Shown one piece after another: positions 34,853 to 50,104 of a stretch of 64,000 nucleotides of DNA; within the stretch, counting starts at the first letter, position 1; each line of letters begins with the position of its first letter. The notes below the pieces were generated by a model. That model was not told the origin of the DNA. It made no database searches and saw nothing but the letters and a program-made list of their open reading frames with translations. Position numbers and translations under genes: made by a program. Origin of the DNA: Sporocytophaga myxococcoides DSM 11118 (GTDB lineage: Bacteria > Bacteroidota > Bacteroidia > Cytophagales > Cytophagaceae); the NCBI RefSeq assembly GCF_000426725.1, contig NZ_KE384561.1:289092-353091 (forward strand), written 5' to 3'.

Positions 34853-37273
34853 ATGAATATAAACAACTTTAAAGTAAAGGTTTTACCTCACCTTTTAGCA
34901 TTCGTCATATTTTTAATTATCTCATTAGTTTACTTCTCCCCTTACCTGAATGGTAAAAGTTTGGCTCAAAACGATATGGTCCAAACACTTGGAGCCTTAA
35001 AAGAATCTGCAGACTTTGCCAAAAGCTCAAATGAGGAAATTCTATGGTCAAACAGCACTTTCAGTGGTATGCCTGTTTGGAGAGGAGCAGGAGCCAATAT
35101 TTTAAACTATGTCAATACCTTTTTGAATAGTTTTATTCCAAACCCTGTACTCCTTTGCCTTTTCGGGTTTACGGGATTCTATATACTATTACACGTATTT
35201 GGATTGAATGCATGGCTTTGCTTTGCAGGCGCTCTGGCTTATACATTTTCCAGTTATAATTTAATAAGTATTGAAGCTGGTCATATTAACAAAGTTTATG
35301 ACATGATGCTGATGGCCCCTGTTATTGCTGGTATTATATTAACATACCGCAAAAATATGATTACCGGAGCGGCCTTAACAATTATCTCCTTAGCCCTCCA
35401 GATATATTATGGTCACGTGCAGATTACTTATTATCTGCTGATCATGGTGGTATTCATTATAATCGCCGAATTTATTTATGCCCTGAAAGGTAATAATCTT
35501 AAAAGATTTTTAACTGGCTCAGTTGTGTTATTGTTCTGTGTCATTATCAGTATCGCCCCTAATGTGGCCAAACTTTGGACCATGTCTGAGTATTCAAAAG
35601 CAACTCCTAGAGGTGGATCAGATTTATTGGCTAAAAAAGACCAGGGAACCGGCCTTGACAGGGACTATGCATTAAGCTGGAGCAATGGTATAGCTGAAAC
35701 TATGACCATACTGATTCCTTCATTTTATGGAGGAAGTTCAAATGAACAGTTAAGCACCGGATCTGAGACATTCAAAACTATGGTGAATAATGGAATCGCT
35801 AAAGGTCAGGCAAAGGAATATATTGAGAGTATGCCAATGTACTGGGGAGACCAGCCATTTACTTCAGGACCAATTTATTTTGGGGCCATCGTTTGCTTCT
35901 TGTTTATTTTGGGGTTGATTCTTATAAAAGGTCCTTTGAAATGGTGGATAATCCCTGTAACAATCTTATCCATTGTCCTTTCTTGGGGGAAAAATTTTGA
36001 ACTGCTTACAGACTTATTCTTTAACTACGTACCACTTTATAATAAATTCAGAAGTGTTACTATGATTCTTTCTGTTGCTGAAATTACATTTCCTCTGCTT
36101 GGGTTTGTTGTGTTGAAAAAGGTATTGGATAGTGAGCTTTCAAAAGAAGAAATTATGAAAGGGCTTAAAATCTCTTTCGGTATTACCGGGGGGCTTGCGC
36201 TTTTCTTTGCCATTTTAGGTGGTGCATTTTTTGATTTTAACGGTGCTTCTGATGCTCAGCTGCCAACCTGGTTAATTGACTCTCTAAAGGAAGACCGGGC
36301 TTCTGCACTAAGAATAGATGCGTTGAGATCATTATTTTTTGTAGCTGCAACTGCTGGAATGATTTGGGCAGTTATCAATGATAAATTAAAGGAGAATGTT
36401 TTTTATGTACTACTTACCGTACTTATCCTAGTTGATCTTTGGACTGTAGATAAAAGATATCTGAATTCAAAAGACTTCAAAAACAAAGAAAACTTTGAAG
36501 AAACCATATTTGTACCAAGTCCTGCTGATAATATCATTGCTCAAGACAAAGATCCATATTTCAGAGTTTTCAATGTAACGACAAATCCGTTTGCTGATGC
36601 AATAACATCTTATTTCCACAAATCAATCGGAGGATATAGTGCGATAAAGTTGGGCAGATATCAGGATCTTATTGACGCACAATTGAGCAAAAACAATATG
36701 GCTGTTTTGAATATGCTTAATACCAGGTATTTTATTGTTCCAGACAAACAAACCAATCAACCAACTGTACAAAGAAATCCCGGAGCTTTAGGAAATGCCT
36801 GGGCTGTAGATAGTGTAAGAATTGTTCCGAATCCTGATGAAGAACTTAAAGGATTGAGTAATTTTGATCCTGCAAGGACAGCAATTGTGGATAAGGTATT
36901 TGAAAGCTATGTGAAAGATTTAAATCTTTCAATCGACAGCACCGCGTCTATTGTACTTAAAGATTACCATCCTAACCATCTTACATTTGAATCAAAATCC
37001 AAGAAGGACCAATTGGTTGTTTTCTCAGATGTTTACTACCAGCCAGGGTGGAATGCTTATATTGATGATAAACCTGTAGAGCATATCAGAGTAAATTATA
37101 TTCTGCGTGCTTTGAAAATTCCTGCAGGAGAACACACCGTTTCATTCAGATTTGAACCTAAGTCTTATATTACAGGTGAAAAAATTTCAAGAATAGGCTC
37201 CTGGATATTGGTATTATCAATAGTAGGATTACTTGGTGTCCAGCTATCTTCTTCAGTAAAAAAGAAAGAATAA
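34853..37273 (+). CDS. YfhO-family polytopic membrane glycosyltransferase-like protein
   Basis: 806 residues with about 12 transmembrane helices in residues 10-540 and a soluble C-terminal domain ending in one further helix (about 783-799). N-terminal SPYLNGKSLAQNDMVQTLGALKE and C-terminal VVFSDVYYQPGWNAYIDDKPVE are hallmarks of YfhO (GT-C fold) proteins, which B. subtilis uses for lipoteichoic-acid glycosylation. In Bacteroidetes these are usually unassigned; a role in envelope glycan modification fits the neighbouring glycan cluster. Ends with a strong hairpin shared with the convergent operon. Confidence 0.9.
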   Translation: MNINNFKVKVLPHLLAFVIFLIISLVYFSPYLNGKSLAQNDMVQTLGALKESADFAKSSNEEILWSNSTFSGMPVWRGAGANILNYVNTFLNSFIPNPVLLCLFGFTGFYILLHVFGLNAWLCFAGALAYTFSSYNLISIEAGHINKVYDMMLMAPVIAGIILTYRKNMITGAALTIISLALQIYYGHVQITYYLLIMVVFIIIAEFIYALKGNNLKRFLTGSVVLLFCVIISIAPNVAKLWTMSEYSKATPRGGSDLLAKKDQGTGLDRDYALSWSNGIAETMTILIPSFYGGSSNEQLSTGSETFKTMVNNGIAKGQAKEYIESMPMYWGDQPFTSGPIYFGAIVCFLFILGLILIKGPLKWWIIPVTILSIVLSWGKNFELLTDLFFNYVPLYNKFRSVTMILSVAEITFPLLGFVVLKKVLDSELSKEEIMKGLKISFGITGGLALFFAILGGAFFDFNGASDAQLPTWLIDSLKEDRASALRIDALRSLFFVAATAGMIWAVINDKLKENVFYVLLTVLILVDLWTVDKRYLNSKDFKNKENFEETIFVPSPADNIIAQDKDPYFRVFNVTTNPFADAITSYFHKSIGGYSAIKLGRYQDLIDAQLSKNNMAVLNMLNTRYFIVPDKQTNQPTVQRNPGALGNAWAVDSVRIVPNPDEELKGLSNFDPARTAIVDKVFESYVKDLNLSIDSTASIVLKDYHPNHLTFESKSKKDQLVVFSDVYYQPGWNAYIDDKPVEHIRVNYILRALKIPAGEHTVSFRFEPKSYITGEKISRIGSWILVLSIVGLLGVQLSSSVKKKE

Positions 37274-37278
37274 AAAAT

Positions 37279-37313
37279 AAAAAAGGCACTTAAATCAAGT
37301 GCCTTTTTTATTT
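37279..37313. terminator. Bidirectional terminator ending the glycan operon and yfhO
   Basis: 13-bp inverted repeat AAAAAAGGCACTT (37279-37291)/AAGTGCCTTTTTT (37297-37309), loop AAATC, T-run on both strands. Confidence 0.9.
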
Positions 37314-37321
37314 TTAACTGA

Positions 37322-38590
37322 CTAATTTCCTTTTGCCTCTTTGTACAAATGAGTATACTTTTCTGCTACGGATTCTTCTGAATAATCCCTAATGGCCTTC
37401 TCTCTTGATTGCATACACAATGTTTCGTAAGGAGCCTGAAACAATGTCCAATAAATGCCAGCAGCTAAATCTTCTGATGATTTATATTCAGCTACATAGC
37501 CCGTCTTCCTATGTTCTACCATTTCGGGAATTCCTCCCGTATTAAAACCTACCACAGGTGTCCCACAAGCAAGTGACTCCATCACTGTATTGGGCAAATT
37601 ATCCTCCAAAGAAGGTATAACAAATACTGATGCTGCAGAATATGCATTGACAATGGTTGACATATCAGACAATCTTCCCAGACTATTTATTTTAAAAGGT
37701 ATTCCTGAAAAATCCTGCTCATCATACAGACCAAAAATTAATAATTCTGTATCCTTAAGTTCATTTGAAAATTGCTTTGCCAGTATCTCTAGTCCATTTT
37801 TGAAGAAAGCAAAGCCCTTTCTTTCATCACTTACTTTCATGGCTGCAAAAAGTATATACTTTTTATCAGGATTCAGATTAAAGAATTTTCTTGCATTAGT
37901 TTTATCCTCTGGCGTAAACACTGATACATCTATTGGATTGGGAACAGATACCACTTTTTTATCTTTCAGCAAACTGCTTTGTCTCGCTTTGGATCCAAGC
38001 CATTCACTGCAAGAGACAATTGTCAGATTTTTTTGACCGAAAACTTCAGCTTTCTTATTCCACCTTTTTCTGGACAAATCTGTTTCATAAGGATGTTTTA
38101 AGTAAGGAAGACAATTACCACATGCTCTGAGGTAATTTGTGCAATCTTTGCTGTAATGACAGCCACCAGTGAAGGTCCACATGTCGTGGAGGGTTATTAT
38201 GATTGGTTTGCCTGTTGCTATCAGTTTTTGTATTGAGTCTAAAGACAAGAATCCAAAATTGATCCAGTGAAGGTGAATAACATCTGCTTCTTTTACAAGT
38301 GCATTATTACTGAGATCAACACCAATTTCGGCTTGAGAAAAAATGAAACGAGCAGATTTATCTTTCTCATAAAAAGAAAATTGCAGCCTGTCTGCTGCAA
38401 ATCGGAATAGGGCAAGTTTCTTCTGAACCCAGGTATTCGCAATGCTGTGAACATTCTTGTTATTGGCTTTCTTTTCCTGCACCAGCATTTCAGACTTCAG
38501 GCCACTTTTTAATAAAGCTTTATGAAGACGTAAGGCTGCAATTCCCGCCCCTCCAAAAGTATCAAATGTGCTTAAAATTAAAACTTTCAT
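37322..38590 (-). CDS. Family 4-type glycosyltransferase
   Basis: 422 residues, GT-B fold. N-terminal LSTFDTFGGAGIAALRLHKAL; donor-binding C-terminal half with VSVPNPIDVSVFTPED and the E-x7-E segment FVIPSLEDNLPNTVMESLACGTPVVGFNTGGIPEMV. An insert with CHYSKDCTNYLRACGNCL (four cysteines) precedes the linker, seen in some polysaccharide GT4 enzymes. Last gene of the minus-strand glycan operon, 58 bp from the FkbM gene. Confidence 0.92.
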   Translation of the reverse strand: MKVLILSTFDTFGGAGIAALRLHKALLKSGLKSEMLVQEKKANNKNVHSIANTWVQKKLALFRFAADRLQFSFYEKDKSARFIFSQAEIGVDLSNNALVKEADVIHLHWINFGFLSLDSIQKLIATGKPIIITLHDMWTFTGGCHYSKDCTNYLRACGNCLPYLKHPYETDLSRKRWNKKAEVFGQKNLTIVSCSEWLGSKARQSSLLKDKKVVSVPNPIDVSVFTPEDKTNARKFFNLNPDKKYILFAAMKVSDERKGFAFFKNGLEILAKQFSNELKDTELLIFGLYDEQDFSGIPFKINSLGRLSDMSTIVNAYSAASVFVIPSLEDNLPNTVMESLACGTPVVGFNTGGIPEMVEHRKTGYVAEYKSSEDLAAGIYWTLFQAPYETLCMQSREKAIRDYSEESVAEKYTHLYKEAKGN

Positions 38591-38648
38591 ATTACAGTCC
38601 TGACTAAAAAGAATATTTTGAACCGCATTATTTTGACTGAAGATGCAA

Positions 38649-39455
38649 TTAATTTTTATAACCGAAAATATTAAGCTGTAAATCCATTATTTTATTGTCT
38701 CTGTAGAAATGGTTAACCAAAGGAGATTGACGTCCCTGAGCTGAATCTATATAATATCGAAAATTATTCTTTGAAAGTACATTCAGTATTTCATTTAACT
38801 CCTGTTGTTGTCCGGGAAATGAATGATATTCTATAAAAATATTCTCTACATTCGTTAAAGCATCTGAACAATCCTTTAACACTGCCGACTCCGCCCCTTC
38901 GATGTCCATCTTCAACATATCAATTTTAGGAGTTTGCAACAATAGGTCTCGTAGTCTCACAGATTCAACTTTTACTTTTTTCCCATTACCAAAGATAGAA
39001 GCCCCATCAGCCCCTTCAATTGAAAATTCAATTCCGTTATTGTCAATCCACACAGCCTTATTTAGGATATCTACATTTTTGATATTATTCTTATCAAGAT
39101 TACTCTTTAAAATAGAGGCAATATTTGGGTCTGCCTCAAATGCTATAATTTTAGATGCTGGATATAAAGAACTAAAGTAAAGGCAGCTGGTACCAATATT
39201 GGCACCACAATCAAAAATTACAGGGGTCTTTTCCTTTGTTTCAAACTTGTAATATTGCTCCACATAAATTTCCTGAAATTGAAACAAGAAAGACCAACAA
39301 TCGGGAACCAGGAATTCGTATTTTAAAAATGATACTTTCCTTTGAGAATACCTGGGAACATTTCCATATTTGGCCATCAATAAGAGTAAATGACGGCCCA
39401 TTGAAGACTTCAGTATTCTATATACACTCTTAAAGAGATATTTTAACGCGAACAT
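38649..39455 (-). CDS. FkbM-family methyltransferase
   Basis: 268 residues. SAM-binding motif I IFDCGANIGTSCLYFSSLYP (about 79-98), motif II IIAFEADPNIASILK and the FkbM signature DMLKMDIEGAESAVLKDC. It probably O-methylates a sugar in the glycan made by this cluster. It begins 10 bp after the DUF115-like gene's end. Confidence 0.92.
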   Translation of the reverse strand: MFALKYLFKSVYRILKSSMGRHLLLLMAKYGNVPRYSQRKVSFLKYEFLVPDCWSFLFQFQEIYVEQYYKFETKEKTPVIFDCGANIGTSCLYFSSLYPASKIIAFEADPNIASILKSNLDKNNIKNVDILNKAVWIDNNGIEFSIEGADGASIFGNGKKVKVESVRLRDLLLQTPKIDMLKMDIEGAESAVLKDCSDALTNVENIFIEYHSFPGQQQELNEILNVLSKNNFRYYIDSAQGRQSPLVNHFYRDNKIMDLQLNIFGYKN

Positions 39456-39465
39456 TTCTTAATAT

Positions 39466-40350
39466 TTAATTGAATTTAACTCTTTCAAATGCATCCACAT
39501 AGCTTTTTGTACTTGCATTGAAAATTTTAGTTTTTTTAGTATCTGCGTATACTTTTAGTATTTCATGCCCTCTGAATGCTTTTGAAATAGATAAAAATTG
39601 ATTGGCCATTGTTTTTCTTTTATTGTCTTGATGATATAATGGCATCTCTTTTTCCTTAGCTGCATCCGGATTATAAAAGTGCAGGACCTTTATTGTAAGT
39701 ATGTTATCCTCTCTGATACTAATGTGCTCATGCCAGGAATGATCTGCTCCATATAGATATATGTATTCATAATTTCTGTTAATCATCAAATATAAAGTAG
39801 CTATCATTACATTTTCGCACTGAGGCATTGCTAGCCCTTTTGAAAAAAAGAAATGTTTTATAAAATCAAATCCTTCAAATATTGTATAGTTAAAATACAC
39901 AACTTTAATATTTGGTTTCTGAGCCAGAAGTTCTTGAAGTATTGCTGATTTTTTAACTTTTAAAGGAACGAATAAATTTAAATTCCAGGTTGTTTTATCT
40001 TTTAATGATTTAAAAGTGGAAATTATAACTTCGCTTTTACTCCCCTCCTCAGAAAAAAATAAAGGATCAATTATTACATAATTCTCAGGTTTTAATTGCT
40101 CAAAATAGTCATATGTTGCAAAGGTATTAACACATACTAAGTCCGTATCCTTCATAATATTCAGATGCTGTTCAAGAGATGTACTCAGAGAAGGACCGTT
40201 TCCTAAAATACTGCAAATTTTATTTTGAGGAGATGGCAAATGAGTGACAGGTCTTGACATGAGCAAAACCCTTACTAAGGAAATACAAGTCTGAATCCCT
40301 TTGGTTAAAAAATCACTTAAGTACATGCTTACAGAGGTGAAAGTACTCAT
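39466..40350 (-). CDS. DUF115/MptE-like protein in the nonulosonic-acid operon
   Basis: 294 residues. ICSILGNGPSLSTSLEQHL (about 46-64) is the GNGPSL nucleotide-binding signature of DUF115/MptE-like proteins; a Rossmann-like order follows (DLVCVNTFATYDYFEQLKPENYVIIDPLFF, then YEYIYLYGADHSWHE). Maf proteins of this superfamily attach pseudaminic/legionaminic acid to flagellin; others are pterin pyrophosphokinases. Placement between a flippase and a methyltransferase, directly in a legionaminic-acid operon, favours a nonulosonic-acid transferase or related role, but the fold alone does not decide. Overlaps the flippase gene by 4 bp (ATGA). Confidence 0.65.
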   Translation of the reverse strand: MSTFTSVSMYLSDFLTKGIQTCISLVRVLLMSRPVTHLPSPQNKICSILGNGPSLSTSLEQHLNIMKDTDLVCVNTFATYDYFEQLKPENYVIIDPLFFSEEGSKSEVIISTFKSLKDKTTWNLNLFVPLKVKKSAILQELLAQKPNIKVVYFNYTIFEGFDFIKHFFFSKGLAMPQCENVMIATLYLMINRNYEYIYLYGADHSWHEHISIREDNILTIKVLHFYNPDAAKEKEMPLYHQDNKRKTMANQFLSISKAFRGHEILKVYADTKKTKIFNASTKSYVDAFERVKFN

Positions 40351-41837
40351 GACTTTAACAGGGGTTTTAATACTCGGTTTATAATATCATTCATTTCTAA
40401 TGATACCCTCATTTTATATATAACTACAATAAACACAACAGAAAAAATACTTGATCTGATAGCCATATCCAAAAGGTTATTAAACACACTTCCTCCTATT
40501 AAAGGTATGTAATAGGCCGCAGCAATGATAACCGATGACACTATAATAACTTTAAGAATGTTAATATCAAAAGGCTGCATTTTCAATTTCTTCAAGACCA
40601 GCCAATATTTTATTGAGTTATAATAAAATGTTGAAAAAGCGGCAGCCAATGCTGCTCCTACCAGTTTGTACTCCGGTATAAGAATCATATTAGCAATAAT
40701 GGTCAGGAAAATCAGACTGATCATAATAACTAAATCGTATCTGTAATATTTTGACATAGCCATTACAATTCCGTTTAATCCCGTGGCCAGATCAAAGAGT
40801 TTACCCAAACCAAGAATTATGATAACCCATTTTCCCTCCTGATAACCTTGCGGAATAAGTTCAAAAAAGGAATCTAAATTTATAAGTATGCCGCCAAATA
40901 TAAGACATCCAATTATCAGCTGCATGACACAGCTTTTTCGATAGATAGTTTGTATTGTATGAAGATCATTATTTTTAAATGCGTTTACAATAACAGGGAT
41001 AGCAGCCTTGCTCATGGCAATTAAAGACATTCCCATAATACTTCCGAAAAAAGATGCAGTGTTATAAACACCCGTGTCTTCCAAACCGCCATAATAAGTC
41101 AGCATAATCTTATCTATGTACATAATAATCATAGAAGAAAACCCGGCCAATATTGTAACAAGGCTGTAATTAATAAATTCCTTCCGGAACTTAGGAGTGA
41201 ATACTGAGAAATCAGGAATAAGAGAAAATCCACTTAATTGCATGGATTTTATTATCATCCATATTGTGGGAATTATAAATGCTGAGGTCCAAATCCAAAT
41301 GAAGACATCAAAACTTATTCCAATCACAGCTATAAGCACGAGACCTATTAAAATTATCAATCTTTGTACAAATTGATTCAGAAAGGTTCCGGATACTGTT
41401 TCAAATAAATTCCTTGAATAACTATCAAAAAAATTAAACAGTATAGTGCCTAAGGAAATAGGAAGTAGCAGATAAAAATATTGGTCTAGTATAGCTGATC
41501 CTTCCGTAGAGGAAGACAGAAATAAAGGTTTCAATAAGAATACTAAAGCAGATGTCATCAGAAAACCTAACATGGAAATACTCAGTCCGGTGAAAACAAA
41601 GCCACCATATCCCTTTCTTTCACTAAACCTCGGGAAAAACCGGCTACCTGCATAGTTAACTCCAAGACTGGCTAACTGCACGAATATATACATAAAGGAT
41701 AAAAGTAATCCCAAAAGTCCGTTCTGATCTTTGGTCAGCAAATTAGGGATAAGTAATCCCTGACTGATAAATCCTATTGCAACCCCAAGGTATGAAAAGA
41801 TAGCACTGTGTAAGGATTGTTTTTTAATTGTACTCAT
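40347..41837 (-). CDS. Wzx-like polysaccharide flippase
   Basis: 496 residues with about 12-14 hydrophobic helices over the whole length and N-terminal FSYLGVAIGFISQGLLIPNLLT, typical of the MOP/oligosaccharide flippase superfamily. It would flip a lipid-linked glycan across the inner membrane. It starts 34 bp after legF, and its end overlaps the DUF115-like gene, binding the transfer and flipping steps to the sugar pathway. Confidence 0.9.
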   Translation of the reverse strand: MSTIKKQSLHSAIFSYLGVAIGFISQGLLIPNLLTKDQNGLLGLLLSFMYIFVQLASLGVNYAGSRFFPRFSERKGYGGFVFTGLSISMLGFLMTSALVFLLKPLFLSSSTEGSAILDQYFYLLLPISLGTILFNFFDSYSRNLFETVSGTFLNQFVQRLIILIGLVLIAVIGISFDVFIWIWTSAFIIPTIWMIIKSMQLSGFSLIPDFSVFTPKFRKEFINYSLVTILAGFSSMIIMYIDKIMLTYYGGLEDTGVYNTASFFGSIMGMSLIAMSKAAIPVIVNAFKNNDLHTIQTIYRKSCVMQLIIGCLIFGGILINLDSFFELIPQGYQEGKWVIIILGLGKLFDLATGLNGIVMAMSKYYRYDLVIMISLIFLTIIANMILIPEYKLVGAALAAAFSTFYYNSIKYWLVLKKLKMQPFDINILKVIIVSSVIIAAAYYIPLIGGSVFNNLLDMAIRSSIFSVVFIVVIYKMRVSLEMNDIINRVLKPLLKS

Positions 41838-41871
41838 TGAACTTGAATAATCTCTATTGAGATTAATATTA

Positions 41872-42561
41872 TTATTCTCCCTTTATTTTCTTATTATAAA
41901 TAAGTTCTGCGATTTCCCAATCCAAAGGAGTATCGATATCAACAGAATCCGTATCATCCATTACATACTTTCTTATTTTAGTAAATTCTGAGATAGACAT
42001 TTTTTTCAGAGAATCCACTTTCATAATATAAATCGCTCCATTGTACTTATATACTTTTGGCATATCCTGCCTTCTCGTAAAAGTATTCTCTGCTGCCTTT
42101 TTAAGAAATCCATTTTCATCTTCATTATAGCAAAGGTATATTGGATTATACATCTCCTGCACACTCACAACCATATCCACATCATCGCTATATAGTTCCA
42201 GACTATCTTTCAGATGTTTAATGGTTCTCAAAGGAGAAGTAGGCTGTAATAAAATAATTCTAGAATATTGAACGCCTTTTCCTTCATAAAATTGAATGGC
42301 ATGTTTAATTACATCATACCCTGAAGCTGTATCTGTCGCGAATTCCTCAGGTCTTATAAATGGAGGTTCCAACCCATATGCTCGGACGGTCTCAGCAATA
42401 TCCTGACTGTCTGTAGAAACGCAAATATCTTTATCATCAGCAAACGCTCTTGCCAGATCTATGCTGTAATAGATAAGAGGTTTTCCATTAAATTTTTTAA
42501 TATTTTTGCCGGGAATACCTTTGGAGCCTCCACGAGCAGGAATAAGAAACAAGGTTTTCAT
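41872..42561 (-). CDS. legF: CMP-nonulosonate (legionaminate-type) cytidylyltransferase
   Basis: 229 residues. Signature IPARGGSKGIPGKNIKKFNGKPLI at the N-terminus, LLQPTSPLR and DSVDIDTPLDWEIAE in the later part define acylneuraminate cytidylyltransferases. With LegB/C/I/G upstream, CMP-legionaminate (or a close nonulosonic acid) is the likely product rather than CMP-Neu5Ac. Its ATG abuts the stop codon of the PtmE-like gene with no gap. Confidence 0.9.
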   Translation of the reverse strand: MKTLFLIPARGGSKGIPGKNIKKFNGKPLIYYSIDLARAFADDKDICVSTDSQDIAETVRAYGLEPPFIRPEEFATDTASGYDVIKHAIQFYEGKGVQYSRIILLQPTSPLRTIKHLKDSLELYSDDVDMVVSVQEMYNPIYLCYNEDENGFLKKAAENTFTRRQDMPKVYKYNGAIYIMKVDSLKKMSISEFTKIRKYVMDDTDSVDIDTPLDWEIAELIYNKKIKGE

Positions 42562-43611
42562 TTATTCCAGATATTTTACATATTCCTGAGCCTTCTTATA
42601 ATCATCGGGCTTACCAATGTCTATCCAATATCCAACAATAGGGAAATAAGTAATCTTTTTCTGCATAGAGAACAGTAGATCCATTAGATCTGTCGCATTG
42701 TAGAAAGTATTTCTAGGAATAAGATTAAAATATTCCTTTTTTATAAGATACATACCCGCACTTGCGTGGTAGGTATAAGTTGGCTTTTCAGCAACTGAAG
42801 TAACGGAAGAATTATCAATGTTAAGTACTCCATAAGGTACTGAAACCACATAAGGAAAAGATGCAATTGCCATATCTGCTCCTACTTCCAGATAATGCTT
42901 ATAAAACTCTTCAAGATTAAGATTTGTAAACAAATCAGAATTCATTACAAGCACTGTATCTGATTCATAATTATCTACAAGAGTCACAGCTCCTAATGTC
43001 CCGAGTGGCTCGTCTTCTCTGATATATTGTATATTCAATCCATACTTTTCACCATTCCCAAGATAATCGATGATCTGGTCTGCAAGATATTTAACAGAGA
43101 TGTAGACATTCTCTATTCCGAATTTACTTAGGTTATTGATATTATATTCAATAATGGCTTTATTGCCCAGCTTCAATAGAGGCTTTGGTGTTTTTTCTGT
43201 CAATGGCCTCAGTCTTTCTCCTTTGCCTCCAGCCATTAAAACAGCTTCTACAGGAAGCAATGACTTTTGCCTTGTAAGATCGAAAAGTTTAACAAGCTTC
43301 CTTTCGTTGTTCAGCACAGGCAAGAGCCTTATATTATTTTTTCTTATTGAATCAATCAGTGCCAAATCTGGCTGTCCGTTTTTCAGAAAAATAAAATTGC
43401 CATGCATGAAAGTTGATATAGGAGATTCAAGGGATGTTCCCTTTAAGATACCCCTGCGTATATCGCCATCCGTAATTGTACCAACAACTTCACCGTTACT
43501 ATTTAATACAATTAAAGTCAGCTTATCGTTCGCATTAAGCTTCTCCAATGCCTGCAAAAGAGTGCACGTTTCGGAGATTACATATTTTTCAAATTCAAGT
43601 TTATAAGACAT
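42562..43611 (-). CDS. PtmE-like nucleotidyltransferase with CBS pair
   Basis: 349 residues: two CBS motifs (about 1-115; LTLIVLNSNGEVVGTITDGDIRRGIL, RLLPVLNNERKLVKLFDL) fused to a sugar nucleotidyltransferase (about 120-345; VLMAGGKGERLRPLTEKTPKPLLKLG, metal region VMNSDLFTNL). This layout equals PtmE, the glucosamine-1-phosphate guanylyltransferase of the Campylobacter legionaminic pathway. It suggests that this pathway uses a GDP-linked precursor. Partner genes ptmF and ptmA are not seen. 16 bp after legG. Confidence 0.88.
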   Translation of the reverse strand: MSYKLEFEKYVISETCTLLQALEKLNANDKLTLIVLNSNGEVVGTITDGDIRRGILKGTSLESPISTFMHGNFIFLKNGQPDLALIDSIRKNNIRLLPVLNNERKLVKLFDLTRQKSLLPVEAVLMAGGKGERLRPLTEKTPKPLLKLGNKAIIEYNINNLSKFGIENVYISVKYLADQIIDYLGNGEKYGLNIQYIREDEPLGTLGAVTLVDNYESDTVLVMNSDLFTNLNLEEFYKHYLEVGADMAIASFPYVVSVPYGVLNIDNSSVTSVAEKPTYTYHASAGMYLIKKEYFNLIPRNTFYNATDLMDLLFSMQKKITYFPIVGYWIDIGKPDDYKKAQEYVKYLE

Positions 43612-43627
43612 TACAGCAACTTATTTT

Positions 43628-44725
43628 TTAAAGCTGTTTAAGGATATTTACTATCTGCCCGGAAGCATCTCCTGTTCCATAAACATTAAGATTTTCAAGT
43701 GGCTTCAAAGATTCTACTTTTTTTATAGCACACTCTATTGCTTCATGTTCGACAGGAACATTTAAAATATTAGGAGTTACAAGCCTTCCCTTTTGCCTGT
43801 CTCCGAGATTGATAACGTATTTTGGAAAAAATGAAGCCTCGACAAATCCACTAGATGTATTTCCCAGCATAAAAGCACAATGCTTCATGCAAGATAAATA
43901 TCCCAATGCTCCGAAAGATTCCACCTCTATTGCATTTTCAGCGTGAACAATAAAATCCTTTAACCTAGACCTGATCATATTTCCCATTGTATCAGTATTG
44001 GGCATGGTAATGACCAATTGGTATTTACTACAATTTGCCAAGGCCTTTATAACCTCATTGATGAAAATTTCATTTTTTTCAAAAGAAACTGTTTCTGGAT
44101 GGAATGTTATAAGTATTGTAGGTTTGGACAGATCTATATTGAATTTTTCTTTAAACTCTTCAGGAGAAAAGAGTTTCATATTTTTCAGGTTGTCTATGCT
44201 TAGAGCACCTACATTATAAGTATGTTCTTCTGAACCTGTAATTTCGATAACTCTTTTCTTATAAATATCTGTAGACACAAAATGAAATGTAGACATTAAT
44301 GTAATAGAATGCCTATAAACATTATCTATTGCGCCAAGCGTTGTTTCTCCTCCGGATATGTGTGCAACTTTGATATTAAAGGGAGTTGTAGCACTTACAG
44401 CTGCAAACATTTCATATCGGTCTCCCAATGCAAATACAAGATCAAATTTATGCTCACTCCAAAGCTTAGAAAACTTTTCTATGGTATCACCTATGGAAAA
44501 CGCTATATCAGAGGGACTGTCACCTTCAGGAACGGTAGGAATCTGATGCTTTACCTCAAATCCGTCTGTTTCTATGCAGCTAAGCGTATATCCATGAGCA
44601 ACAGACAAATGTGTTCCAAAAGCTATAATTTCAAGATCAAAGAAAGGATCTTCCTTTAATAATTTCAACAAAGGATAATAGATGCCATAATCGGCTCTGG
44701 AACTGGTGAGTACAGCTATTTTCAT
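43628..44725 (-). CDS. legG: Hydrolysing UDP/GDP-sugar 2-epimerase (LegG/NeuC family)
   Basis: 365 residues. NeuC-type features: LTSSRADYGIYYPLLK, LGDRYEMFAAVSA, HISGGETTLGAIDNVYRHSIT and FMLGNTSSGFVEASFF. It releases the nucleotide and yields a free 2-epimerised sugar (6-deoxy-ManNAc-type) for LegI. It overlaps the end of legI by 4 bp (ATGA), consistent with coupled synthesis. Confidence 0.9.
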   Translation of the reverse strand: MKIAVLTSSRADYGIYYPLLKLLKEDPFFDLEIIAFGTHLSVAHGYTLSCIETDGFEVKHQIPTVPEGDSPSDIAFSIGDTIEKFSKLWSEHKFDLVFALGDRYEMFAAVSATTPFNIKVAHISGGETTLGAIDNVYRHSITLMSTFHFVSTDIYKKRVIEITGSEEHTYNVGALSIDNLKNMKLFSPEEFKEKFNIDLSKPTILITFHPETVSFEKNEIFINEVIKALANCSKYQLVITMPNTDTMGNMIRSRLKDFIVHAENAIEVESFGALGYLSCMKHCAFMLGNTSSGFVEASFFPKYVINLGDRQKGRLVTPNILNVPVEHEAIECAIKKVESLKPLENLNVYGTGDASGQIVNILKQL

Positions 44726-45741
44726 CCGATATCCTTCCAGTTTAATTTATCATCCTCGCTCATAGACTTCAGTATTTTTTTTCCAATCACTTTATCCATT
44801 TCCATCGGGCTGATACCATCTCCAGGTCTTTTCATAATTAAGTCCCCTTCTTCAAGTACATGACCAGCAGGCAGGTTTTTCAAAATATGAATGCTTTTTC
44901 TGGCAATTCCGATGTTCTTTTTTTCAGATTCAGAAGGTGTTTTAATTCCATCTCCCAGAGCTATTTCAATGTTTCTTATAGCAGTGACCATCGCATTCAA
45001 TTCCTCCGGTTCAAGGGAAGATTGATGATCCGGGCCTTCCATATTTCTATCCAGTGTAAAATGCTTTTCTATAATGGTCGCACCAAGGGCTGTTGCAGCA
45101 ATTGGAATTTCAATACCATTGGTATGGTCAGAATATCCTATAGCTACATTCAACTCTTTCTGGATTGTTAGCATTGCATTTAAATTGACATCTTTCATTG
45201 GTGTAGGATATTCTGTTGTGCAATGCAGAACGGTAAGGTGCTCCTTTTTAAGGCCACTGCTCAACAAAACTTCCATAGCAGTTTTAACCTCCTCAAGATT
45301 TGCCATCCCCGTTGAAAGAATGATCTTCTCGAAGTTTTTAGCCATCTTCCTGAGGTATGGCAGATTTGTTAATTCACCAGAAGGTATTTTACCAATATTA
45401 ATTCCAAGATCTTTTAACAAGTCAATACTTTGCAAATCAAAAGGGGTAGAAAGAAATTGAATTGGTTTGGTCTCGCAATATTCTTGTAAAATATGATGGT
45501 GTGTTTCATTCAGTTCAAGCCTCTTTAGCATTTCATATTGGCCTTCATCTGAACCAGTCATTTTCTTCTGATATTCGGCTTTCTCTGATTTTTTACTTGT
45601 AATCGTTGATGCCTTAAAAGTCTGAAATTTTATTATATCAGCACCGGCTTCAAAAGCTTTATCAATGAGTTTTTTAGCAATATCTATGCTTCCGTTGTGA
45701 TTAACTCCTGCTTCGGCAATGATTAAAATTGATGGTTTCAT
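44722..45741 (-). CDS. legI: Nonulosonic acid synthase (LegI/NeuB family)
   Basis: 339 residues. NeuB barrel with AEAGVNHNGSIDIAKKLID (N-terminus), IKFQTFKAS, IPSGELTNLPYL, TEYPTPMKDVNL and GYSDHTNGIEIPIAATALGA...EKHFTLDRNMEGPDHQSSLEP; C-terminal SAF antifreeze-like domain (about 283-339). Condenses the 2-epimerised sugar with phosphoenolpyruvate. The NeuB family cannot separate sialic from legionaminic by sequence alone, but the neighbours favour legionaminic acid. Confidence 0.92.
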   Translation of the reverse strand: MKPSILIIAEAGVNHNGSIDIAKKLIDKAFEAGADIIKFQTFKASTITSKKSEKAEYQKKMTGSDEGQYEMLKRLELNETHHHILQEYCETKPIQFLSTPFDLQSIDLLKDLGINIGKIPSGELTNLPYLRKMAKNFEKIILSTGMANLEEVKTAMEVLLSSGLKKEHLTVLHCTTEYPTPMKDVNLNAMLTIQKELNVAIGYSDHTNGIEIPIAATALGATIIEKHFTLDRNMEGPDHQSSLEPEELNAMVTAIRNIEIALGDGIKTPSESEKKNIGIARKSIHILKNLPAGHVLEEGDLIMKRPGDGISPMEMDKVIGKKILKSMSEDDKLNWKDIG

Positions 45742-45762
45742 TTAATAAAATAAATGTAATAC

Positions 45763-46395
45763 TCATTTATGAAAAACTGCAGGATTTCCTATGTAAACAC
45801 CTTCCTCAAGCAGATCCTTAACTACCGTAGAATGCCCTCCGACCACTATATTCGATGCAATTGAAATGCCATGGAAGGCCATTACCGAACTTGCAATAAA
45901 ACAATTATCCCCTACTTTAACACCTCCGTTCAGCACAGCATTGGTTGAAATATGACAATGGTTTCCAATCTTCACGTCATGTTCAATTATTGCCCTTGTA
46001 TTAATTATTACATTATCTCCTATCTCTGAAGAGGCATTTAATATACAACCATGCATTACAATTGTACCTTCCCCGATTTTAGCATACTTTGAGACAATTG
46101 CTGTTGCAGCTATAATGGTGGCTAGTTTTCCACCTTCTTGTTTTATCGAATTATAAAGTTTAATTCTTAATGCCGGAGATTTGAACTGCCCAATTGTAAT
46201 TAAAAATTCAAATCCCTTTTGTGCCAGTTCAGGAATAAGCTCATCTCCACCTAAAATAGGATACTCTAGAATAGTCTCTCCTTTAGTAAAATCCTTTTCA
46301 AGAATACCTTTTATCTCATAGCTTCCGCCTGATTCTATCACGTCTATGCAAGATTTGCAATGACCTCCGCCACCTATGAGAATAAGTTTTTTCAA
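45763..46395 (-). CDS. Hexapeptide-repeat acetyltransferase (LegH/NeuD/PglD-like)
   Basis: 210 residues. Rossmann-like N-terminal part (LILIGGGGHCKSCIDVIES, 3-21) followed by left-handed beta-helix hexapeptide repeats (about 95-205; IGEGTIVMHGCILNASSEIGDNVIINTRAIIEHDVKIG). This is the PglD/NeuD layout, which acetylates the amino-sugar made by LegC. H131 region (IEHDVKIG) corresponds to the catalytic His of that family. Placed 3 bp after legC. Confidence 0.88.
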   Translation of the reverse strand: MKKLILIGGGGHCKSCIDVIESGGSYEIKGILEKDFTKGETILEYPILGGDELIPELAQKGFEFLITIGQFKSPALRIKLYNSIKQEGGKLATIIAATAIVSKYAKIGEGTIVMHGCILNASSEIGDNVIINTRAIIEHDVKIGNHCHISTNAVLNGGVKVGDNCFIASSVMAFHGISIASNIVVGGHSTVVKDLLEEGVYIGNPAVFHK

Positions 46396-46398
46396 ATT

Positions 46399-47538
46399 TT
46401 ATAATCCCGAATAAAAGTCTTTAACAAATTGAATAACCTGACTCACCTCTTCATTCTTAATGGATGTTGAACAAGGAAGACTCACACATGCCCGATAAAC
46501 ATCCTGTGAAATATCATTATGGGTAAAATAAAGATCTTTTTCCATCATTGGCAATCGATTCATTGGTACCCAAAATGATCTTGCTTCTACACCTTTTGAT
46601 TTTAGATAAGCTATTAGCTCTGCTTTATGCGGAACTTTGACAGTAAACAACCAATGATTGGGCTCCACTCCTTCAATTACCTCCTGAGTTTTAAATCCTT
46701 GAATAAAAGACAACTCATTTTTATACATCTGAGCTACCTCTTTTTTCCTTTGGATAAACACATCTAATTGCTCCATTTGGGCAACTCCCATGGCTGCCAG
46801 AATATTTACAAGCCTGTAGTTATATCCGGTTTCATCATGATAATATTCATTAGGGTCAGCTTTTGCCTGAGTGGTGAGATGTTTTGCCTTTGTTGCAAGC
46901 TTCTCATCACTGGTAAGGATCATTCCTCCTCCTCCCGTAGAAATAATTTTATTACCATTGAAGCTACTGGTTCCGAATAAACCAAAGGTACCAGCATGTT
47001 TGCCTCTAAACTTGCTGCCTAAAGCTTCAGTTGAATCTTCAACAATTATCAGTCTGTATGTTTGAGCGATTCTGATAAATTGATCCATGTCACACATATT
47101 GCCCAGCACATGAACAGGTACAATTGCACTAATCCTTCTGTTTAATTTTTTATGGTAACTAAATCCTTCTCTTATTTCAGTTTGCGTTTGAAGAAATTCC
47201 TCAAGCAATCCGAGATCCATTTGCCAGGTGTTGCTGTCTACATCTATCATGACAGGATCAGCCCCAGTATACTTTATTGCATTGGCAGTAGCGACAAAAG
47301 TAATATTAGGAATGATAATCAAATCTCCTCTCTCGACACCGGCCAACTGGAGACTTATATGAAGCGCTGCAGTACCGTTGGAAGTAGCAATAGCATACTT
47401 TGCTCCGGTATATTCAGCAAGAGTTTTCTCAAATTTAGTTACATAACTGCCAACAGAAGATACCCAATTGGTATCAAGACATTCTTTGATGTATGTCCAT
47501 TCATTTCCTGAAATATTTGGTACTGAAAGAGGGATCAT
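46399..47538 (-). CDS. legC: LegC-type sugar aminotransferase
   Basis: 379 residues of the DegT/DnrJ/EryC1/StrS fold. PLP-lysine K197 in TSSFNGNKIISTGGGGM, with VEDSTEALGSKFRGK (aspartate D168 binding the pyridine nitrogen) and a C-terminal sugar-binding region. Transfers an amino group to the 4-keto sugar formed by LegB. 47 bp downstream of legB and 3 bp before the acetyltransferase. Confidence 0.92.
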   Translation of the reverse strand: MIPLSVPNISGNEWTYIKECLDTNWVSSVGSYVTKFEKTLAEYTGAKYAIATSNGTAALHISLQLAGVERGDLIIIPNITFVATANAIKYTGADPVMIDVDSNTWQMDLGLLEEFLQTQTEIREGFSYHKKLNRRISAIVPVHVLGNMCDMDQFIRIAQTYRLIIVEDSTEALGSKFRGKHAGTFGLFGTSSFNGNKIISTGGGGMILTSDEKLATKAKHLTTQAKADPNEYYHDETGYNYRLVNILAAMGVAQMEQLDVFIQRKKEVAQMYKNELSFIQGFKTQEVIEGVEPNHWLFTVKVPHKAELIAYLKSKGVEARSFWVPMNRLPMMEKDLYFTHNDISQDVYRACVSLPCSTSIKNEEVSQVIQFVKDFYSGL

Positions 47539-47585
47539 TTTTAGAATTGCTTCAAAGAAGCTTTTTCAATTTACTTAGTTTAAAA

Positions 47586-48584
47586 TCAAATATTATAGAT
47601 ATCAATCTTATATCTCGCCAGATTAGATGCTTCCGAAAACCATTTAATAGTCTCTGCCAATCCGGAATCCAAGGTATAATCAGGCTTCCAATTGGTTAGT
47701 TCCTTAATTTTCTTGTTACTACCGAACAAGCGCTCTACCTCACTTTTTTCAGGTCTGAAACGCTGCTCGTCAGTAATAATTTTCGCTTTCCCGTTGATCT
47801 GACTGATGAGCTTTTGCGCTAAATCTCCTACAGAAATCTCTTCCTGCATTGCTATGTTCACCTCTTCACCAATGGTTGCATCAGCCTTTGCAATCTCAAT
47901 AAATCCTTTTGCTGTATCCTTAACAAATAACAAATCTCTTGTCGGATGCAGGGAGCCAAGCTTGATCTCATTTTTACCTGCAAGCAGTTGAGTGATAATT
48001 GTAGGAATTACAGCCCTTGCTGACTGTCTGGGACCATAAGTATTAAATGGACGAACAACAGTTACAGGTACTCCAAAGCTTCTGTAAAATGAATCTGCTA
48101 TGTAATCGGCTCCGATTTTGGTGGCAGAATATGGTGATTGTCCCTGGCGGGCATGTTTTTCATCTATAGGAACATAAAGAGCAGTTCCATACACTTCTGA
48201 AGTTGAAGTTACCAATACCCTCTCAACACCAAGTTCTTTAGCAGCTTGAACAATATTAAGAGTACCTTTTACATTAGTATCGATATAAGTATCCGGAGAA
48301 TGATAACTGTAAGGAATAGCAATAAGTGCTGCAAGGTGAAAAACAACTTCGATATCTTTCATTGCATTTTTTACTCCATGCGGATCTCTTATATCTCCTG
48401 CAATTATTTCAAGTTGAGCAAGTTTTTCTTTAGGAAATGCATCAAGCCATCCCCAGGAGTTAAATGAGTTGTAATATACAAATGCCCTGACCTTGCAACC
48501 TTCTTCCAATAACTTTTCCACCAGGTGACTTCCGATAAACCCGTCTGCTCCCGTAATCAGGACTTTCTTGTTTTTTAACTCCAT
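47586..48584 (-). CDS. legB: NAD-dependent 4,6-dehydratase LegB
   Basis: 332 residues. Extended SDR: NAD motif ITGADGFIGSH (10-20), active-site STSEVYGTALYVPI and PYSATKIGADYI (YxxxK). Length and composition match LegB, which converts the nucleotide-activated HexNAc to the 4-keto-6-deoxy sugar. Opening gene of the minus-strand operon that runs to 37322; no clear promoter box is visible upstream, although an AT-rich 5' region is present. Confidence 0.92.
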   Translation of the reverse strand: MELKNKKVLITGADGFIGSHLVEKLLEEGCKVRAFVYYNSFNSWGWLDAFPKEKLAQLEIIAGDIRDPHGVKNAMKDIEVVFHLAALIAIPYSYHSPDTYIDTNVKGTLNIVQAAKELGVERVLVTSTSEVYGTALYVPIDEKHARQGQSPYSATKIGADYIADSFYRSFGVPVTVVRPFNTYGPRQSARAVIPTIITQLLAGKNEIKLGSLHPTRDLLFVKDTAKGFIEIAKADATIGEEVNIAMQEEISVGDLAQKLISQINGKAKIITDEQRFRPEKSEVERLFGSNKKIKELTNWKPDYTLDSGLAETIKWFSEASNLARYKIDIYNI

Positions 48585-48931
48585 TTTGTCTTTAAACTAT
48601 TGACTCAAAAATTTTTATCTAGACCTAAGGTGAACTCTCTGCCAAATGTGATAGTTTCAAATTTAAGCAAGGAATTCAATCCTCCATAAGTTCACCCTTT
48701 GTAAGAGAGTAAACTTACAAATTTTGAATAAAATTCGCTCTTCTATTCAGATTTAAATAATTCTTCTTCTCTTATTCCCCATAGAATTCAATTCTTTGGG
48801 GCAGGTAAAAACGAATTGGAATACAGGAAAGCAGATTCGACGATTTTCATTACTTAAATTACTTTTAAGTAAATGTATTACCTTTGCCTTCAGTCTCATA
48901 TGGTAAGTTACAAAAGTACATTAAATTAATT
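48585..48931. other. 347-bp divergent control region between legB and a glycosyltransferase
   Basis: No gene supported. An inverted repeat GGTGAACT/AGTTCACC (48629-48636, 48689-48696) lies here and the plus-side -7 box is at 48879-48886. The rest is AT-rich. It must contain the start signals for the nonulosonic operon. Confidence 0.5.
48879..48886 (+). promoter_or_regulatory. Putative -7 box of the divergent glycosyltransferase gene
   Basis: TACCTTTG matches TAnnTTTG; the ATG at 48932 is 45 bp downstream. An in-frame start at 48884 overlaps this box and is therefore unlikely. No TTG -33 half at usual spacing. Confidence 0.4.
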
Positions 48932-50104
48932 ATGCCTGATAATAGTAGAAAAGAGAAGTGGGTAACAATTGTAAACAGACATTATCCTCCCAATCCTGGC
49001 ATAACTGGTGAATCGGCCTGGGACCTCGCTAAATATCTGATAGACCATTACAATATTCATGTACAAATAGTCCATGTTCTACGAAATGATGATGGCGGAG
49101 GTGCAGTCAGATCCCCTATTGGAAAAATCGTTTCAATTCCAACTTTATACAAAGGTAAAAATGAAGGCTTAAAATCTCTTGCAGGTTTTCTTGATGGTTT
49201 ATTTCTGATTATTAAAACCCTTTTTGTGAAAAAAGGACCTGTAATTTGCATGACCAGCCCTCCATTGTTACCATTTTGGGCTTCCATTTTTTTTGGAATA
49301 TTTCGTATAAAATGGATTTTCTGGTCAATGGATTTATTTCCTGAAGCTTTTGTAGCAAACAGGAAAATGAAAAGTAATTCTTTCCTTTATAGAATTATCA
49401 GATCCATTACTTATAACAACAAACCAGAGTTGCTGGTTTCATTAGGGCCCAAGCAGGCAGAATATATCCTGACAAATTATAAAAGGCCCCCTCTTGTTAC
49501 AGTGTTACCATGTGGCGTCTTTACAGATTATGAAAAAGACGAACAAATTCCTGAATGGAAAAAAGATGATGGCAAAATTTATTTTGGTTATTGCGGGAAT
49601 CTCGGAGCTCCACATTCGAAAAAATTTCTGAAAGAATTCATTGATACGTTTAATCCGGAAACACAACATTTAATCCTTGCTGTCTATGGACCAAAAGCTT
49701 CTGAAATACAAGAGTATGCAAAAGGGAAAGTTGGTATAACAATGCTTAAAAATGTACCAAGAAGTCAGCTACATTATATAGATATCCATCTTGTGAGTTT
49801 GCTTCCTGAGTTCAATCATACTGCTGTTCCTTCAAAAGCAATCAGTTCAATATGTACCGGAGGTACTGTTTTATTTTACGGAAATGAAGAAGCTGACACA
49901 TGGTTTATGCTTCGCAATGCATCCTGGCTGGTTGATATTAATAAAGATTTAAAAAATCAATTGACAAACTTTATTGAGAATATTTCAGCGGAAGAAGTAC
50001 TTGGAAAGAAAAAAGACTCAATAATACTTGCTGATCAGTTACATAAAATGGAAATATCAGCTTATCAGGAAATAGCGGATCATATAATCCGCTATCACCG
50101 GTGA
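48932..50104 (+). CDS. Glycosyltransferase (GT4-like)
   Basis: 390 residues from the ATG at 48932 (MPDNSRKEKWVTIVNRHYPP). N-terminal NRHYPPNPGITGESAWDLAKYLI and MTSPPLLPFWASIFFGIF resemble the acceptor side of GT4 enzymes; central VVTVLPCGVFTDYEKDE-like linker (LVTVLPCGVFTD) and donor part follow. The donor half lacks a well-conserved E-x7-E motif, so confidence in exact family is moderate. It is divergent from legB and convergent with the epimerase gene, with adjoining stops. Confidence 0.78.
   Translation: MPDNSRKEKWVTIVNRHYPPNPGITGESAWDLAKYLIDHYNIHVQIVHVLRNDDGGGAVRSPIGKIVSIPTLYKGKNEGLKSLAGFLDGLFLIIKTLFVKKGPVICMTSPPLLPFWASIFFGIFRIKWIFWSMDLFPEAFVANRKMKSNSFLYRIIRSITYNNKPELLVSLGPKQAEYILTNYKRPPLVTVLPCGVFTDYEKDEQIPEWKKDDGKIYFGYCGNLGAPHSKKFLKEFIDTFNPETQHLILAVYGPKASEIQEYAKGKVGITMLKNVPRSQLHYIDIHLVSLLPEFNHTAVPSKAISSICTGGTVLFYGNEEADTWFMLRNASWLVDINKDLKNQLTNFIENISAEEVLGKKKDSIILADQLHKMEISAYQEIADHIIRYHR

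Follow-up and report, generated by a model that had tools for sequence, protein, structure and literature searches.

A legionaminic acid-type operon of Sporocytophaga myxococcoides and a candidate nonulosonate transferase gene that appears to be exchanged with the sugar cassette

We analyzed a stretch of 64,000 nucleotides of Sporocytophaga myxococcoides DSM 11118 (contig NZ_KE384561.1, positions 289,092–353,091; hereafter the window, from a genome of 6.34 Mb in 21 contigs). It carries an operon of eleven minus-strand genes (37322–48584) for a nonulosonic acid, most likely legionaminic acid (Leg), a bacterial sugar that resembles sialic acid. We consider it probable that the operon makes CMP-legionaminic acid and carries its own candidate transferase, exchanged together with the sugar cassette at a variable glycan locus. 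The Leg pathway itself is of a familiar type, already published together with ptmE in Tannerella forsythia; the new part, which is worth testing, is the linked candidate transferase and its co-exchange with the cassette. The most informative part of the operon is a DUF115-like gene to which a preliminary description, made from the sequence alone, had given no role. It lies at 39466–40350 on the minus strand and encodes a stand-alone protein of 294 aa related to MptE-like (DUF115) proteins and to sialyltransferases, a candidate CMP-nonulosonate transferase by its linkage, by widened profiles and by its tree within the family.

Results

Strong homologues of the DUF115-like protein were found in 6 of 395 genomes of the phylum and in 10 of 19 genomes of the family (15 genomes in total, the window's own being in both samples; G numbers denote genomes). 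A nonulosonate synthase gene lies 31–7838 bp from the homologue in 13 of the 15. Seven of these loci are of the Leg type (G000, G312, G313, G305, G297, G206 and G238) and six of the pseudaminic acid (Pse) type (G311, G298, G304, G249, G389 and G379). The type was read from the LegB model for G000, G297, G305 and G238 and from PseB together with PseI for G311, G249, G389, G379 and G298; the assignment is weaker for G304, typed by PseI alone, and for G206, G312 and G313, typed by a synthase above the NeuB cut-off and by BLAST neighbours. Eight more genomes of the phylum gave weak matches, with a NeuB-family gene in the fetched stretch of four (G226, G321, G147 and G295) and none in that of the other four (G137, G411, G127 and G335). 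The viral collection yielded one 30% fragment and the plasmid collection no homologue.

As a control we followed the Wzx-type flippase encoded next to the DUF115-like gene (40347–41837, minus strand; Polysacc_synt, 48.6 bits), which was matched in 18 of the 19 family genomes. In eight of the 18, the genomes with transferase and cassette, the best flippase match shares a contig with a NeuB-family gene no more than 9 kb away; of the other ten, eight are without the transferase and two (G307 and G308) have it without a synthase match. Fisher's test on this table gave p 0.001, a value weakened by the fact that several genomes counted as having no cassette beside the flippase are drafts with flippase and synthase on different contigs; proximity was worked out by hand, and G309, without a flippase match, stands outside the table. 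From this control we conclude that the flippase persists without the cassette and the transferase mostly does not, drafts being among the ten.

An HpcH/HpaI aldolase gene is found near three of the weaker MptE-like homologues, those of G137 (L068:6244-14170), G335 (L071:9756-13678) and G411 (L069:9521-12514), and in two of the three loci a CTP_transf_3 cytidylyltransferase is also near. This suggests that the aldolase makes another 3-deoxy-ulosonic acid, which an enzyme of the MptE-like kind would transfer. In G304 a Leg cluster on a 14-kb contig that is free of DUF115-like genes coexists with a Pse synthase accompanied by such a gene beside YfhO (L039, L044).

By their gene content, Leg and Pse cassettes replace each other at one site within the window's genus. 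The identical order of eleven genes recurs within the genus in G312 and G313 (G313 with shorter open reading frames for LegC, NeuD and GT4, of 292, 154 and 349 aa), and another member of the genus, G311, holds a Pse cassette at the window's own site. Its order is PseC, PseB, a cytidylyltransferase-like gene (42 bits against the KDO model, below cut-off), PseG/PseH-like and PseI, followed by the DUF115-like and FkbM genes. Between G311 and the window the flanking genes are 74–99% identical, the transferase 38% and the FkbM-family methyltransferase (38649–39455, minus strand; TIGR01444, 105.6 bits, cut-off 37.7; Methyltransf_21) 42%. Across the family the site consists of the flippase, YfhO and/or ffh at one end, pfkA/miaA at the opposite end and variable glycan genes in between, a layout that holds in most genomes with a fetched stretch, as far as the stretches reach, and differs in G306 and G307. 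The flanking YfhO-family membrane protein of the window (34853–37273, plus strand; PF09586, 36.8 bits) lies next to Wzx or to the cassette in several genomes of the family. The flippase of the window is 28–31% identical to those of other genera and of G311 and 36% identical to one in the Pse locus of G249; judging by these identities, it may have been exchanged as well.

In the Pse locus of G311, PseG and a PseH-like C-terminal part (37.9 bits, below cut-off) form one protein of 480 aa (L041:12826-14268). FkbM is followed there by a DUF5672 protein (L041:17143-17916), possibly another glycosyltransferase, with homologues of 48–49% identity in G297 and G305, where they lie downstream of the DUF115-like gene.

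We compared the tree of the DUF115-like protein with that of the neighbouring YfhO. The former holds 15 proteins; the truncated copy of G308 and the weak homologues other than that of G226 were left out, and G307 is included as a member of neither the Leg nor the Pse group. Within the family the Pse proteins of G311, G298 and G304, which represent three genera, form a clade with support of 89/86, and the Leg proteins of G000, G312 and G313 with G297 and G305, likewise from three genera, form another with support of 86/82. The approximately unbiased test rejected a single clade of the four proteins from the window's genus (p 0.0006) as well as a pairing of G297 with G298, which belong to one genus (p 0.0005); the groups tested are genera, but were picked once the tree was known. 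The YfhO tree (11 proteins, from part of the family genomes, that of G297 at half length) groups both genera with support of 100/100. Within the family the reconstructed phylogeny of the transferase follows the type of sugar and that of YfhO the genus, and beyond the family Leg and Pse proteins mix. Co-exchange of the transferase with the sugar cassette is well supported by these trees in two genera.

The likeness to sialyltransferases emerged from profiles widened beyond the close family. Profile A4, searched against the PDB chains, gave ten matches, nine of them sialyltransferases with a best E-value of 1.5e-7 for 2p2v; profile A5, which is A4 without the G226 protein, gave nine sialyltransferases among 11 matches (best E 4.9e-7), the other two being ribosomal L30 (E 1.2). 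The nine sialyltransferases, 2p2v and 1ro8 among them, are distinct sequences and largely variants of one or two enzymes, which we take to be CstI and CstII. The similarity to CST-I/CstII is remote and runs over the N-terminal part, including a GNGPSL motif. The G226 homologue, encoded near PseI, matched MptE-like at 4.3e-13 and the Pfam family CST-I at 9.8e-5 (22.4 bits, below the cut-off of 25), and all six of its PDB matches are alpha-2,3/2,8-sialyltransferases (best E 0.0083). Four of the more distant homologues pass the MptE-like cut-off, and all ten members of the close-family profile A1 match MptE-like at E up to 10 (best 3.5e-8). The tenth match of A4, 5mu5 (E 0.2), is a Maf protein of Magnetospirillum (PMC9298399), and the central pfam01973 domain of Maf resembles Cst-II (PMC11339370).

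Several observations weigh against a sialyltransferase-type enzyme exchanged with its sugar. The window protein itself scores 18.3 bits against MptE-like PF01973, short of the gathering score of 34.6; searched against the PDB, it returned a single unrelated match (E 1.4) and no sialyltransferase. The close-family profiles behave alike (A1 one unrelated match with E 0.86, A6 none), so that the link to sialyltransferases needs the wider relatives. An AlphaFold2 model, built on three near-identical sequences, reached a mean pLDDT of 35.4, too low to bear on the fold in either direction. In the tree the two within-family clades are not starred, and beyond the family the best-supported large clade (100/99) unites five Leg proteins with two Pse proteins (G249 and G389), while G238 (Leg) groups with G379 (Pse; 86/79). 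On the entire tree the sugar label needs three changes, a value that 30 of 500 shuffles attained for the Leg label and 37 of 500 for Pse. G307 and G308 have a DUF115-like gene, on contigs of 3.6 and 4.2 kb, and no NeuB-family match in the genome. Finally, a NeuB-family match (1e-40) is found in 234 of the 395 phylum genomes versus the six with a strong transferase homologue. As most genomes with a NeuB-family gene are without the DUF115-like transferase, it can be at most one solution among several.

These observations bear on an alternative that we regard as unlikely, namely that the DUF115-like protein is another enzyme of the glycan locus, or a pterin kinase as the Pfam name has it, and that the sugar is attached by the product of a gene elsewhere or by the GT4-type glycosyltransferase encoded last in the operon (37322–38590, minus strand; Glycos_transf_1, 73.4 bits). 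The failure of the close-family profiles to reach sialyltransferases and the two genomes without a synthase match fit this alternative. So does G238, in which the DUF115 and LegB genes have a GT4 homologue (41%) as their neighbour, and so does T. forsythia, whose transferase was assigned to the GT-B superfamily (PMC6120980). It accounts less well for the linkage of the DUF115-like gene to Leg and Pse cassettes alike, for a phylogeny that tracks the sugar within the family and for the sialyltransferases found with the widened profiles. Moreover, the stretch of G311 from the Pse cassette to YfhO contains no homologue of the GT4 gene.

The nucleotide that carries the precursor was approached through the PtmE-like protein (42562–43611, minus strand), which combines the Pfam domains CBS and NTP_transferase and may serve in the synthesis of GDP-GlcNAc. 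We take the CBS domain to be a feature of PtmE. A CBS-containing PtmE-like nucleotidyltransferase in the cluster is in keeping with membership in the GDP route, and we used the full-length protein as a marker (more than 200 bits in the 19 family genomes). It is present in nine of these genomes, exactly the nine with a synthase above the NeuB cut-off. For the phylum sample we counted 120 NeuB-family proteins among the matches listed, 42 above the cut-off and 78 from 399.3 to 295 bits, and 44 of 62 PtmE matches, the 18 without the CBS part being left out. Of the 42 synthases above the cut-off, 35 have full-length PtmE at a distance of up to 30 kb (32 of them up to 5 kb), versus nine of the 78 below it and two of the 48 among those that score less than 330 bits. 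Conversely, 42 of the 44 full-length PtmE copies are near a synthase of the set used.

The preliminary description had read the PtmE-like protein as a pointer to the GDP-linked Campylobacter version. The linkage of CBS-containing PtmE to NeuB/LegI-type synthases supports this indirectly; the models do not reveal which nucleotide is used, since the uridylyl, thymidylyl and guanylyl families of NCBIfam were all matched below cut-off. Where a pathway needs a dedicated nucleotidyltransferase, the best explanation is that its precursor differs from UDP-GlcNAc, and we infer GDP rather than UDP from the gene content. This is not certain, because Legionella and Bacillus subtilis are reported to make Leg by a UDP-linked route (PMC6137143, PMC7439481). 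Were the pathway of the window to run on UDP-GlcNAc as in these bacteria, the PtmE-like protein would make another nucleotide sugar. The unspecific model scores would agree with that, as would the seven of 42 NeuB-type synthases without full-length PtmE within 30 kb, two of which are strong (G248 and G185, more than 510 bits). Yet UDP-GlcNAc would make a dedicated nucleotidyltransferase needless, which sits poorly with the frequency of PtmE near NeuB-type synthases. Mannose-1-phosphate guanylyltransferases are among the upper PDB matches of the PtmE-like protein, and Leg synthesis in T. forsythia involves GDP-GlcNAc (PMC6388019). A UDP-linked route thus appears rather improbable to us, somewhat more so than a different role of the DUF115-like protein, and GDP is the nucleotide that we favor.

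The assignment of the sugar rests on the remaining enzymes. LegB, an NAD-dependent NDP-GlcNAc 4,6-dehydratase (47586–48584, minus strand, as are all genes of the operon), scores 510 bits with TIGR04180 (cut-off 475), and the aminotransferase LegC (46399–47538) 471.9 bits with TIGR04181 (cut-off 420). They are followed by a NeuD/PglD-type N-acetyltransferase (45763–46395; TIGR03570, 196.6 bits, cut-off 160.8; PglD_N and Hexapep), presumably in the role of LegH, and by LegI, a NeuB-family nonulosonate synthase (44722–45741; TIGR03569, 486.8 bits, cut-off 399.65) and the sole NeuB-family match in the genome. The hydrolysing 2-epimerase LegG (43628–44725) reaches 387.3 bits with TIGR03568 (cut-off 235.9). 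LegF, the CMP-nonulosonate synthetase (41872–42561), is clear by Pfam CTP_transf_3 (86 bits); the one NCBIfam model that it reached is PseF (TIGR03584), at 165.7 bits below the cut-off of 205.7. Synthase, hydrolysing 2-epimerase and CMP synthetase thus all accompany the LegB–LegC pair.

The legionaminic type proposed in the preliminary description was supported by the comparison with Leg, Pse and Neu models, in which dehydratase and aminotransferase fit best as LegB and LegC, both above their NCBIfam cut-offs. A pseudaminic reading was rejected, with PseB at 84 bits (cut-off 407.75), PseC at 260 bits (259.8 before rounding; cut-off 423.5) and PseI at 280.8 bits (cut-off 340.25). A plain sialic acid route (NeuABC) next to a separate bacillosamine-type set of LegB, LegC and PglD is very improbable: the models above cut-off for synthase and epimerase are indeed named NeuB and NeuC and do not separate Leg from Neu, but LegB to LegF lie in one operon whose order is common to three genomes and whose set recurs in other genera, and the nearest solved relatives of LegG are the N,N'-diacetylbacillosamine 2-epimerases 5xvs/5zlr (229 bits), ahead of a bifunctional GlcNAc 2-epimerase/ManNAc kinase (134 bits). 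By these assignments the product of the operon is most likely legionaminic acid.

We also looked at the steps that supply the precursor. A short-chain dehydrogenase/reductase (SDR) from the Leg clusters of two neighbours was used as query in the genome of the window and gave 15 generic matches of 28–37% identity, the best at 79.6 bits and 34% identity; ptmA and ptmF sequences themselves were not queried. In G297 (L035:11245-12904) and G305 (L036:11147-12806) a GFO/IDH/MocA oxidoreductase and an SDR, which may correspond to ptmF and ptmA, lie between LegF and the DUF115-like gene; the operon of the window is without this pair. The absence of ptmA and ptmF from the operon had been noted before, together with the expectation that they lie elsewhere. 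This need not be a gap, as one protein of the genome is above the cut-off for GlmS and the Leg clusters of T. forsythia are drawn as legBCHIGF plus ptmE (PMC6120980). Both genes are probably not needed for the pathway.

Other Leg clusters contain further genes: a formyltransferase and a PIG-L deacetylase in G206 (L034:3561-5131), an ATP-grasp protein in the position of the acetyltransferase in G297 (L035:6078-7040) and, judged by eye, two oxidoreductase-like open reading frames in G305 (L036:6950-8868). The N-acyl groups of the legionaminic-type sugar may vary between clusters with different extra genes.

All eleven open reading frames of the operon are open at their coordinates, which confirms the layout described earlier. 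From LegB to GT4 the genes are spaced by 47, 3, 21, −4, 16, 0, 34, −4, 10 and 58 bp. The gaps of 3–58 bp or 4-bp overlaps given in the preliminary description agree with the measured spacing except for PtmE and LegF, which abut at 0 bp. The last gene is directly followed by a terminator-like hairpin with a stem of 20 pairs and a T-rich tail (37273–37315, minus strand), which separates the operon from the convergent YfhO gene; such hairpins number 13 in the scanned stretch versus 7.1 expected. The Bacteroidetes-type promoter pattern matched six times in the window (3.65 expected) and not between 48585 and 48884 in front of LegB, and sigma-70-like sites in the scanned stretch occur at the shuffled rate (54 versus 48.1).

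On the other side of the operon lies a conserved gene for a probable glycosyltransferase, judged by eye (48884–50104, plus strand), which is 81% identical and in the same place in G311; its protein matched nothing in Pfam (E up to 10) or in NCBIfam (up to 1e-5). It is followed by an SDR/epimerase gene (50105–51172, minus strand; PF01370, 115.6 bits) that is 92% identical in G311. Elsewhere in the window one protein (24744–26639) carries a type B sorting domain of the type IX secretion system. This domain is the one observation that touches on the conjecture of the preliminary description that the sugar might decorate secreted proteins of this system.

Discussion

The route from PtmE to LegF is established in Campylobacter and Tannerella. 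For the window we propose that PtmE charges GlcNAc-1-phosphate, probably as GDP-GlcNAc, that LegB, LegC and the NeuD-type acetyltransferase would then yield a 2,4-diacetamido-2,4,6-trideoxy hexose, and that LegG would release and epimerise this sugar, LegI condense it with phosphoenolpyruvate and LegF activate it with CMP. The DUF115/MptE-like protein (39466–40350), as an enzyme of the sialyltransferase type, would attach the CMP-activated nonulosonate to a lipid-linked glycan, which FkbM and GT4 would modify or extend and Wzx would flip. At the conserved but variable site between ffh/YfhO and pfkA/miaA, Leg and Pse cassettes would replace each other together with the transferase gene. The transfer reaction, the donor specificity and the acceptor, be it a protein O-glycan or a surface polysaccharide, are assigned here by inference from gene content and homology.

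The closest known counterpart within the Bacteroidota is the general O-glycosylation locus of T. forsythia, where the UB4-type CMP-Leg cluster (legBCHIGF, ptmE) has the same enzyme set and, as here, lies beside a wzx flippase and methyltransferases (PMC6120980, PMC6388019). Strains of this species carry alternatively a Leg or a Pse set (PMC6120980, PMC6388019, PMC12871550). Compared by description, its transferase GtfS/TFUB4_00887 is a protein of about 440 aa of the GT-B superfamily, in contrast to the 294-aa MptE-like protein of the window. Likewise by description, the GDP-linked CMP-Leg pathway of Campylobacter jejuni shares the roles of LegB, LegC, LegG, LegI, LegF and PtmE with the operon. 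In the Maf flagellin transferases that go with this pathway, the central domain is pfam01973, which resembles Cst-II (PMC11339370, PMC9298399). Maf has three domains and acts on flagellin (PMC11339370), whereas the window protein has 294 aa and is encoded in an operon with a flippase, which sets it apart from Maf. It likewise differs from CST-I/CstII, since the remote N-terminal similarity is found in its wider relatives, the CST-I model did not match the protein itself at E up to 10, and its expected donor is CMP-Leg. The Bacteroidota O-glycosylation locus LFG, with one flippase at a fixed site, variable glycan genes and an outer glycan that varies, has the same layout (PMC12871550). LFG starts with metG followed by wzx (PMC12871550), whereas the fixed neighbours identified here are ffh, YfhO, pfkA and miaA.

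We did not meet a stand-alone MptE-like protein described as a nonulosonate transferase in our searches of the open-access PMC literature. The nonulosonate transferases known so far are few. According to a 2019 review, none had experimental evidence before the T. forsythia enzymes and there were no predictions of Leg transferases (PMC6388019); Maf4 was later named a putative Leg transferase (PMC9298399). A Campylobacter member of the MptE-like/DUF115 family was explained as part of folate metabolism in a genome paper of 2025 (PMC12102941).

In a wider sense, this stand-alone Maf-core/CstII-like family, named after a pterin kinase, might be the donor-specific nonulosonate transferase of gliding, free-living Bacteroidota. 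Exchanged with the Leg or Pse cassette at the site that runs from ffh–YfhO–wzx to pfkA–miaA, it could provide a serotype-like switching, in soil bacteria, of a sugar that resembles sialic acid and form the family's counterpart of the Bacteroidota O-glycan locus. We put this forward tentatively, as a proposal that may well fail. Sporocytophaga itself we take to be a gliding bacterium living free in soil.

If the proposed role is true, the poorly understood MptE-like/DUF115 family would gain a testable function, and pairs of Leg-linked and Pse-linked alleles would be available to map donor specificity. It would also mean that a sialic acid-like sugar is replaced in bacteria that, as we presume, live free, which would make immune mimicry an unlikely reason for the replacement.

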